This document shows, piece after piece, positions 12,723 through 14,343 of a stretch of DNA of 62,383 bases. Made by a program: the position numbers and the translations under genes. The notes beneath the pieces are model-generated. The model was not told the DNA's origin. It ran no database searches and was given only the letters and a program-made list of their open reading frames with translations. Positions within the stretch are counted from its first letter, which is position 1; the number at the start of each line of letters is the position of its first letter. Source of the DNA: an uncultured Clostridia bacterium (GTDB taxonomy: Bacteria; Bacillota; Clostridia; Oscillospirales; Acutalibacteraceae); contig CANQGT010000011.1 in NCBI GenBank assembly GCA_947623505.1, positions 1-62,383 on the forward strand, in the 5' to 3' direction.

Positions 12723-12752
12723 AAAGAAAACGGACGCTGCCCTGCGCCCGTT
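12723..12752 (-). terminator. Terminator of the CFI-box/Cys-rich operon
   Basis: On the minus strand, AACGGGCGC / GCGTCCGTT (12729-12752, one G-T pair) is followed by TTCTTT, 10 bp after the stop of the 47-residue gene. Confidence 0.7.
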
Positions 12753-12761
12753 CGTTTGTTT

Positions 12762-12905
12762 TTATGAATACCTTTTGTATATGTCACATTCCTGATAATT
12801 TGTACCGTTGTAATCGGTGCAGTAATTATCGTGCTTTGCTTCGCTTACGGTGTTTTTGCAAAGCTCGCATTTGTATTCCCCGTCTTTATAGTACGGACAC
12901 CACAT
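12762..12905 (-). CDS. Small Cys-rich protein (47 aa), unknown
   Basis: The short gene starts ATGTGGTGTCCGTAC, has AAAGGAGGGG placed correctly upstream, and encodes 47 residues ending in KRYS. Five cysteines (3, 13, 16, 29, 40), including a CELC pair, and several Tyr/Asp/Asn residues suggest a small metal-binding or disulfide-stabilised domain. There is no signal peptide. It lies 14 bp after the TPR/CFI-box gene and is followed at once by a terminator, so the two form an operon. I do not recognise a named family. The strong ribosome site, codon-like composition and bracketed position support a real gene. Confidence 0.72.
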   Translation of the reverse strand: MWCPYYKDGEYKCELCKNTVSEAKHDNYCTDYNGTNYQECDIYKRYS

Positions 12906-12919
12906 AGCCGCCCCTCCTT

Positions 12920-14032
12920 TCATTTATCCTCATAGGGCGTAGTTTCTACGCCTTTTTCAACAAGCTTGTCAACAAATGAATCCAACGGAGTTTTAAATAA
13001 TTTGTGAAACCATAAATAATCTCCAAACAGCCTCACAACTGTCGGGCTGATTGAATAATACAGCTTAATGAACGATCTTCCAAAAACATTTTCGGCAAGG
13101 GTATTATCCCTGAAGCGTCGAAGTGCCCATACTTGCGGGCAGTCATACGAACCGTAAACACAGGTTGCAACATAGCATCCGCCGCTACTGTTTTTGTTAG
13201 AAGAGGCAGACTTTTCTGATTCATTAATTATGTTTTCAGTTAAATTTCTTATTTCTTCATCGCTTATCATGTAGCCTAAATTCTTGGCTTTATTTAGATA
13301 TGCGATTGCTTTTTCTTTATTTCTGTATCCTGGTTCTTTAGCATAAATCATTCCAAGCTCATAAATAGCATTAATTATGCATTTATCCGAGAAAGTGTAT
13401 AGATTTGGATTTTGAGTTGATAAATCACACTCTGAAAGTTGCAGATAGCCTTCTAACGCTGTATCTATATCCTTATTTTTGCCCTCTCCCAAATAGGATA
13501 TATGGGCAATATAATAAATAGCATCTAAATAGGGAACACTGTTAAGGGCTGCTTTAAAATGGCTAATCGCTTCGGGAAAATTTTTTTGTACATAATAAAC
13601 CTTGCCAAGCTCTGTCTCTGCTTCGGCAATGAAGTTTTTTCTCATTGAAATAGTATTTGGAAATTTCGACATCTGCTGGGTTTGATATCTAATAAGAAAC
13701 TCATAATTATTAATAGCAAGATCATAAGATTTTAGATTTAGATAAGCGAGACCCAAATACACAATCGGACCAGGGGAAAGGTCTAAGAGAAAAGAATTAT
13801 TTTCGTCACGCATCCATGAATTCACATATTCAACTATTTTGTCATAATCACCCGCTTTAAAATACAGTCTCGGGAGATCAAAACGAACATTATAAACATC
13901 AAATTCATTAACAAGCCTCTCGCATATTTCGACAGCTTCAGCAAAATCACCGGCTTCTTCGCAAGTTTTCAGCTTTGCTTCAAGTTCTTCTACCAATTCT
14001 TTGTTCTGTTCAATCTTATCATTATCTGACAT
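12920..14032 (-). CDS. TPR protein with C-terminal CFI-box domain
   Basis: The 370-residue protein has an N-terminal helical region with several tetratricopeptide-like repeats (about 20-270; for example FAEAVEICERL, FPEAISHFKAALN, EKAIAYLNKAKNLGY). A C-terminal domain starts at GGCYVATCVYGSYDCPQVW, continues ALRRFRDNTLAENVFG, and ends in a hydrophobic stretch. This end matches the CFI-box C-terminal domain found on diverse bacterial proteins; its role is not established as far as I know. There is no signal peptide. The gene shares a promoter region with a divergent HTH regulator and is followed by the 47-residue Cys-rich gene. TPR repeats suggest protein binding; enzymatic activity is not evident. 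Confidence 0.82.
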   Translation of the reverse strand: MSDNDKIEQNKELVEELEAKLKTCEEAGDFAEAVEICERLVNEFDVYNVRFDLPRLYFKAGDYDKIVEYVNSWMRDENNSFLLDLSPGPIVYLGLAYLNLKSYDLAINNYEFLIRYQTQQMSKFPNTISMRKNFIAEAETELGKVYYVQKNFPEAISHFKAALNSVPYLDAIYYIAHISYLGEGKNKDIDTALEGYLQLSECDLSTQNPNLYTFSDKCIINAIYELGMIYAKEPGYRNKEKAIAYLNKAKNLGYMISDEEIRNLTENIINESEKSASSNKNSSGGCYVATCVYGSYDCPQVWALRRFRDNTLAENVFGRSFIKLYYSISPTVVRLFGDYLWFHKLFKTPLDSFVDKLVEKGVETTPYEDK

Positions 14033-14063
14033 ATTTCTTTCTCCTTTTTCATTTTATAACAAT

Positions 14064-14092
14064 ATTGTAGCCCGTTTACGGGCAATTGTCAA
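14064..14092 (-). promoter_or_regulatory. Consensus promoter of the TPR/CFI-box operon
   Basis: On the minus strand, TTGACA, 17-bp spacer, TACAAT is nearly perfect sigma-A sequence. The whole spacer start region is filled by the palindrome at 14070-14083, so a protein bound there would block this promoter. Confidence 0.8.
14070..14083. promoter_or_regulatory. Palindrome in a divergent promoter, putative operator
   Basis: GCCCGT-TT-ACGGGC has perfect 6-bp arms. It lies inside the spacer of the minus-strand promoter and immediately before the -35 of the plus-strand promoter. The neighbouring HTH protein is the obvious candidate ligand; this is inference. Confidence 0.55.
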
Positions 14093-14114
14093 TATATAAA
14101 CATCAAATTACAAT
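14086..14114 (+). promoter_or_regulatory. Promoter of the HTH regulator
   Basis: TTGTCA, 17-bp spacer, TACAAT lies 22 bp upstream of the ATG at 14137. Its -35 overlaps the -35 of the opposing promoter, so the two are interlocked. Confidence 0.75.
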
Positions 14115-14136
14115 AATAATTAAGGGAGTTGATTTG

Positions 14137-14343
14137 ATGATTGTTTTTGACAAACTGTGGAAAGCCCTTAAAGAAAGAAACATATCACAATACAAGCTCA
14201 TTAAAGAATACAAAATCAGCACGGGTCAGCTTGACCGACTGCGAAAAAACGAAAATGTGAATACTTACACCCTTAACACACTTTGCGAAATACTTGATTG
14301 TAAATTAGATGATATTGCCGAATATAAAAAGGAGACCGAATGA
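14137..14343 (+). CDS. Small Xre/YozG-type HTH regulator
   Basis: The 68-residue protein consists of one Cro/CI-type helix-turn-helix domain (FDKLWKALKERNISQYKLIK, then ISTGQLDRLRKNENVNTYTLNTLCEIL), as in short YozG-like regulators. The start is the ATG at 14137, preceded by AAGGGAG; the longer frame upstream overlaps the promoter. It is divergent from the TPR/CFI-box gene and shares its control region, so it probably represses itself and that operon. The terminator hairpin begins within its last codons. Confidence 0.88.
   Translation: MIVFDKLWKALKERNISQYKLIKEYKISTGQLDRLRKNENVNTYTLNTLCEILDCKLDDIAEYKKETE

Follow-up and report, generated by a model that had tools for sequence, protein, structure and literature searches.

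The locus lies in a 62,383-bp stretch of DNA (hereafter, the window) from a genome of 1.82 Mb in 24 contigs, and is flanked by ylxM–ffh on one side and by mutS2 on the other (ffh and mutS2 were named by eye). It contains three genes, which were present as described in the first-pass annotation: an HTH regulator gene of 68 aa (14137..14343, + strand), a gene encoding a 370-aa TPR protein with a C-terminal CFI-box domain (12920..14032, − strand; hereafter, the payload), and a Cys-rich gene of 47 aa (12762..12905, − strand), the second gene of the operon, past which there is a terminator-like hairpin (12728..12753, − strand). The HTH protein, of the Cro/C1 type and of the recognition helix class STGQL, matched PF13443 (HTH_26) with 62.7 bits (cut-off 22), and the TPR protein matched PF07719 with 34.8 bits (cut-off 27) and NF041770 (CFI_box_CTERM) at residues 286–352 of 370 with 69.6 bits (cut-off 40). 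The HTH and TPR genes stand back to back, not face to face as had been worded. The Cys gene starts 14 nt after the TPR stop codon; an alternative upstream ATG at 12923 overlaps this stop and would yield 53 aa, but a GGAGG-like ribosome site falls between the two candidate starts.

Both of the interlocked promoters and the palindrome annotated between the divergent genes were recovered. The payload promoter (14064..14092, − strand) consists of TTGACA (14092–14087), a 17-bp spacer and TACAAT (14069–14064), with 11 of 12 consensus positions, and the HTH promoter (14086..14114, + strand) of TTGTCA (14086–14091), likewise a 17-bp spacer and TACAAT (14109–14114), with 10 of 12. The −35 boxes of the two overlap by 5 bp. 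The putative operator, a perfect 14-bp palindrome GCCCGT-TT-ACGGGC (14070..14083), lies inside the payload spacer, with 2 nt separating it from the HTH −35 box. VanU-type regulation relies on two adjacent inverted repeats of ~14 bp at the regulator's own promoter; here, a short ACAATATTGT overlapping the payload −10 box occurs besides the one perfect palindrome. The locus has the anatomy of a lambda- or Rco-like region, namely, overlapping divergent promoters, one of them nearer the consensus, with an operator at the overlap. The arrangement exceeds what chance would give. Promoters of this quality (≤1 mismatch, 17-bp spacer) were found six times in the window on both strands, the payload promoter included. 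Allowing ≤3 mismatches, the operator block had seven matches in 80 congeneric genomes, one per genome and exactly in the seven with a close HTH homologue; the reversed pattern had none, and no further copy was found elsewhere in these genomes. Joint inheritance of the operator and the HTH gene is expected, since the two are adjacent; what these counts add is the absence of extra operator copies elsewhere. It should be noted that a 15-nt imperfect inverted repeat (87%), probably a chance occurrence, is present at 14035–14049 and 14326–14340; one arm coincides with the payload ribosome site, the other with the HTH gene end, and the two thus mark the ends of the cassette described below.

At 68 aa, the HTH protein leaves no room for a separate sensor domain. 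Its best named NCBIfam match was VanU (NF000090; 39.2 bits, below the equivalog cut-off of 150), and its sole PDB sequence match was 3tyr/3tys (E = 1.2 × 10−7), which we take to be VanUg. A profile covering both of the HTH classes defined below gave matches at E ≤ 10−12 in 174 genomes (80 of 135 genera) when 398 from the family were sampled. The 60 best-scoring loci (30 + 30), a part of all matches, were fetched; removal of duplicates and of loci with <100 nt upstream left 55 non-redundant loci, and setting aside 14 with other recognition helices left 41, divided into class A (recognition helix GQL, 18 loci) and class B ([SA]TI, 23 loci). The operator AGCCC-N6-GGGC (A) was found in 18/18 GQL loci, in 0/23 [SA]TI loci and in 0/14 others, and the operator TAGTC-N8-GACTA (B) in 21/23 [SA]TI loci; the loose B pattern also matched three of the 18 GQL loci (with two mismatches) and one of the 14 others, the frequencies in shuffled upstream regions being 0.0002 for the A pattern and 0.049 for the loose B pattern. 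Thus, the operator type follows the recognition helix. An operator of the own class was located near the payload promoter in 39 of the 41 loci, mostly inside the spacer, and several class B loci carried a second copy of the B operator further upstream.

The promoters were conserved to a similar extent. A payload promoter TTGACA-17-TATAAT with ≤1 mismatch was present in 40/41 loci (18/18 in class A and 22/23 in class B) and was perfect in 31, against a background of 0.011 such sites per 130 nt of further DNA from the genus, a set that may still contain fetched cassettes. An HTH promoter reading off the common −35 region (TAnnnT at 17 bp) was found in 35 of 38 loci, compared with 4.6% in shuffles. 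L173 and L184 had no class B operator, and L184 no payload promoter either. In a tree built on 66 columns, the HTH_26 proteins of the cassette formed a clade with support of 100/97. Among the 14 loci with other helices, a divergent promoter with ≤1 mismatch occurred in five of the seven inside this clade, which represent two smaller helix classes, and in none of the seven outside it, where the divergent site had 3–5 mismatches. Since class A forms a single clade in this tree, the helix–operator pairing goes back to one evolutionary event or a few, and the 41 loci do not count as independent instances of it. The operator, the overlapping promoters and the HTH gene are conserved together in many genomes. 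The genome of the window also carries a second HTH_26 gene (L144; G000:C24:612-806), which has an operator of a different type and a perfect divergent promoter and stands opposite a ligase-like ORF of 572 aa (by eye); a locus of the same layout with a different ORF (L143) is present in the sister species G019.

Close HTH homologues (78–99% identity) were detected in six other genomes of the genus. The block around the HTH gene was 86, 82, 77 and 75% identical to that of loci L136, L137, L139 and L140, respectively, and in these four the homology started at 14060–14064 (≤4 nt from the payload −10 box) and ended at 14330–14332 (~11–13 nt before the HTH gene end). In L138 (82%), it extended back to 14030, the payload start, and at the orthologous site L100 it ran on towards mutS2. 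Judging from these alignments, the recurring unit is a cassette of ~270 bp bounded by the payload −10 box and the HTH gene end, and the block common to unrelated sites elsewhere covers 14064..14330, up to the last HTH codons. No convincing terminal repeats were found, and a transposon-like unit bounded by such repeats was rejected on this ground.

The seven class A loci of the genus place the block at five apparently different sites (two of these loci, in G018 and G051, are near contig ends), the window sharing its site with G019, and G015 with G004. This distribution bears on another reading, in which the HTH protein is an ordinary local repressor inherited by common descent and the payload differences reflect gene turnover around an old regulator. 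The single class A clade is consistent with such a history, as is the apparently vertical relationship of the HTH genes of the window and G019 between ylxM and mutS2; however, besides the five sites, the block is more similar to its counterparts in G015 (86%) and G055 (82%) than is the housekeeping gene ylxM (74% in both), and an empty site, with mutS2 no more than ~250 nt away, was seen in 10 of the 30 ylxM loci fetched. We therefore consider the non-portable repressor unlikely, although it is the strongest of the alternatives. In three other genomes (L103, L104 and L105), the ylxM–mutS2 gap is occupied by a MATE-like transporter gene (by eye), indicating a recurrent insertion spot.

Comparison of orthologous sites points to the exchange of payloads behind the cassette. 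At the same site in the sister species G019, the HTH protein is 98.5% identical and the palindrome is the same, and the payload is a lipoprotein-like protein of 71 aa with no Cys gene; homology with the window breaks off at 12737, within the terminator to the left of the Cys gene, and is found again from the payload start codon (14029) onwards, with no DNA in common between these points. At a glycosyltransferase–aldolase site (genes named by eye), the HTH gene with its operator (87%) and the Cys gene are retained in both G011 and G052, whose payloads have no DNA homology to each other. Between G022 and G052, the Cys gene is kept and both the payload and the HTH gene differ, the break lying at the Cys/payload border. 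On DNA comparison, therefore, orthologous sites carry different payloads; some of these apparent swaps could be losses followed by unrelated gains.

The payloads opposite the six other close HTH homologues were diverse: in addition to the lipoprotein-like protein of G019, they comprised NlpC/P60 proteins of 647 aa (G015) and 973 aa (G004), a BspA-type LRR protein (G018) and a Zn-ribbon/TM-like protein (G051; by eye), with no convincing divergent ORF in G055. Across the HTH family, NlpC/P60, fn3 and BspA-LRR proteins were among the payloads. A divergent ORF of at least 60 aa was absent in eight of the 41 loci, two of which had short upstream DNA. A hydrophobic N-terminus was predicted by a crude hydropathy rule in 19 of 33 mechanically picked divergent ORFs versus 11 of the 54 window ORFs (Fisher test, 9 × 10−4). 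Several payloads, those of L112, L120, L180, L185, L188, L191 and L193, open with a zinc-ribbon-like CxxC pattern, and payloads of this type also contain a predicted membrane segment.

A small HTH gene beside a variable payload with shuffled domains (the payloads of L046 and L049 have 83 N-terminal residues in common and different C-termini) and a constant small partner could also suggest a toxin–antitoxin or phage-defence cassette, in which an antitoxin-like HTH autorepressor would accompany an effector payload and a Cys-rich immunity or accessory protein. Against this, PADLOC returned only a weak HTH match (E = 0.006), PHROGs only TPR and repressor matches, the Cys protein had no match in viral contigs or plasmids, and the NlpC/P60, fn3 and BspA-LRR payloads belong to the same HTH family; such a cassette seems quite improbable. 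A defence or phage origin was likewise rejected, the PADLOC, PHROGs, viral and plasmid searches yielding nothing beyond weak HTH, TPR and CFI similarity. The similarities in question were a single CFI-box match, in the record of a Clostridioides phage, one HTH relative of 38% identity in viral contigs, and HTH relatives of <60% identity in 16 phage and eight plasmid records; the promoter layout was as in the window in one or two of the three phage or plasmid relatives that were fetched.

Searching 60 congeneric genomes with the TPR protein gave 12 matches including the window, and the 11 others aligned over the C-terminal part only (the CFI-box and the stretch preceding it). We know of no described function for CFI-box-CTERM proteins (NF041770), to which the payload belongs by its C-terminus, and the term "CFI-box" was not found in the one open literature library searched. 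The Cys gene adjoins three of these 11 genes, giving four loci in all (the window, L046, L050 and L051), among which the CFI part (12923..13180 in the window, − strand) is 71–77% identical, and the N-termini of the three other proteins had no BLAST match to the TPR protein of the window.

Cys-gene matches (E ≤ 0.01) were found in 14 of 80 genomes of the genus and were read as 12 intact genes in 10 genomes and N-terminally decayed remnants in three (G029, G014 and G319, that of G014 also being cut by a contig end); the match in G308 and second weak matches in G023 and G052, with stops inside, were dropped as spurious. The remnants (L056, 6851–7530; L059, 1191–1460; L058, 6441–6663) lie next to rpsO or rplU (by eye); L056 and L059 have the remnant and a flank in common, indicating that a Cys gene once sat at this site. 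The mean column identity of the 12 proteins was 73%, with C3, C13, H25, C29 and C40 invariant and C16 nearly so. For 11 of the 12 genes (L052, of other length, was left out), dN/dS was 0.010–0.055 in seven of 20 pairs at dS of 1.4–2.6, i.e., near saturation, and the remaining pairs were saturated. Thus, the Cys gene is real and under purifying selection. Its named relatives occur in assemblies of Clostridia and Ruminococcaceae, and, among 394 genomes sampled, three from two further families of the order carry more distant ones; weak matches in three genomes of other genera were judged to be unrelated ORFs. The closest Pfam profile, PF05741 (zf-nanos), scored 19.7 bits, under its cut-off of 27, NCBIfam gave no match and the best PDB match had E = 0.43. 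None of the scans with Pfam, NCBIfam, PHROGs and PADLOC puts a name to the family.

In each of the 12 genus loci, a payload ORF precedes the Cys gene; past the gene comes a convergent ORF or, in the window, the terminator. The payloads preceding it are mostly unrelated: four have the common CFI-box C-terminus, those of L050 and L051 are homologous throughout, and that of L048 appears as two ORFs and may be broken. The upstream region was visible in 14 of the 15 intact Cys loci (L057 was cut by a contig end), and a divergent Xre-type HTH gene confirmed by Pfam (HTH_26 or HTH_3) was present in 11 of these 14, none being seen by eye in L050, L053 and L163. With 34 HTH_3 matches in the entire genome that contains the window, this neighbourhood is probably not due to chance. 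Nine of the 11 loci with an HTH gene had a payload promoter with ≤2 mismatches and a palindrome in it or ≤12 nt from it, a pattern absent from L048 and L052; in L050 and L053, which have no HTH gene, there was no promoter at ≤3 mismatches. The most likely role of the Cys protein, advanced with low confidence, is to bind zinc and to act together with the payload.

The first-pass annotation had regarded the regulator, the adaptor-like protein and the small Cys-rich protein as one switch-like module and had named neighbourhood of the three genes in other genomes as a test of it; since they are neighbours in one further genome, the module is not refuted outright. The switch itself holds up, as the operator, the promoters and the HTH gene are conserved together, whereas the fixed trio does not: among the 11 other CFI-box matches, only G022 (L046) repeats it with a divergent HTH_26 gene, L051 having an HTH gene of the HTH_3 class, and the conserved unit is the HTH gene with its promoter. 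A dedicated three-gene stress or metal switch, in which the HTH protein would specifically control the TPR adaptor and its Cys partner, finds some support in the trio of G022 and in the four loci with adjacent CFI-box and Cys genes, yet it is the least probable reading, since the CFI-box gene is opposite none of the six other close HTH homologues, the Cys gene follows a non-CFI payload in 8 of the 12 genus loci, and the sister species has the HTH gene with neither CFI-box nor Cys genes. A module specific to metals or redox stress was also rejected, the Cys protein having no family match above cut-off.

We consider the locus to be, quite probably, an instance of a portable local gene switch, in which a Cro-like repressor acts on a near-perfect promoter in front of exchangeable payloads. 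The anatomy, its conservation, the operator–helix pairing and the differing payloads at orthologous sites can be read directly from the sequences. In the proposed mechanism, the 68-aa repressor, probably a dimer, would bind the palindrome within the 17 bp that separate the −35 and −10 boxes of the payload's near-perfect sigma-A promoter; RNA polymerase would thereby be blocked and the payload operon (the TPR-CFI and Cys genes) kept off. The weaker HTH promoter uses the same −35 heptamer, and presumably only one of the two promoters could be occupied at a time. Centred ~44 bp upstream of its own transcription start (if this is 7 nt after the −10 box), the bound repressor may also aid its own promoter. 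The HTH protein would thus both keep the payload off and sustain its own expression, and payloads, in many cases secreted or surface proteins, would be exchanged behind a cassette that stays in place.

An arrangement of this kind is familiar from phage lambda, where PR and PRM are strong and weak divergent promoters, an operator can block one and adjoin the other, and CI, bound next to PRM, helps its own promoter. The locus resembles the CI/Cro region in these unequal divergent promoters and in an operator that would block one beside the other, and differs in having one operator in place of three and in that no second regulator was found here. A further parallel is RcoLS20 of plasmid pLS20, a regulator that is reportedly larger than the 68-aa HTH protein. 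RcoLS20 acts on the overlapping divergent promoters Pc and Pr, of which the strong one is repressed and the weak one is the regulator's own and is helped by it, in a system involving DNA looping and conjugation genes (PMC4207663). The overlapping promoters of unequal strength, with the strong one putatively repressed, are similar here, whereas the conjugation genes, and perhaps the looping, contrast with a unit of ~270 bp that has many payloads. VanUG, the repressor of the vanG operon, shuts down its own promoter through two adjacent inverted repeats of 14 bp; its gene is transcribed together with vanRS, and the protein is also in competition with VanR at a second promoter (PMC4405338). The locus resembles VanUG in its small Xre-type regulator and in the 14-bp length of the palindrome, and differs in that a single perfect palindrome lies in the spacer and that the HTH gene is divergent from a single variable payload instead of being cotranscribed with vanRS.

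Taken together, these comparisons suggest that the switch is likely real, conserved and portable, with exchangeable payloads, and that its mechanism is of a kind already known from lambda or from Rco of pLS20. The first-pass annotation had put the locus forward as its best candidate for something new; a limited search of one open literature library found no published description of the cassette, which is a weak indication.

It is conceivable, though we regard it as rather doubtful, that this plug-in switch, a ~270-bp repressor gene and consensus promoter with a common −35 region, moves between sites of gut Clostridia with interchangeable payloads, many of them surface-exposed, and that a few cells heritably keep each payload ON while the majority keep it OFF, the Cys protein being a constant accessory of one payload class. 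The heritable states are suggested by the lack of a sensor domain and the presumably mutually exclusive promoters. If true, this would provide heterogeneity resembling phase variation without DNA inversion or repeat slippage. The helix–operator pairing suggests an orthogonal set of repressor–promoter parts and makes the bistability of such loci directly testable, and the small Cys-rich proteins constitute a newly defined family under strong purifying selection. Given the presence of HTH_26 matches in nearly half of the family genomes sampled, a large number of surface and membrane proteins of gut commensals that are still poorly understood may be under the control of the switch.
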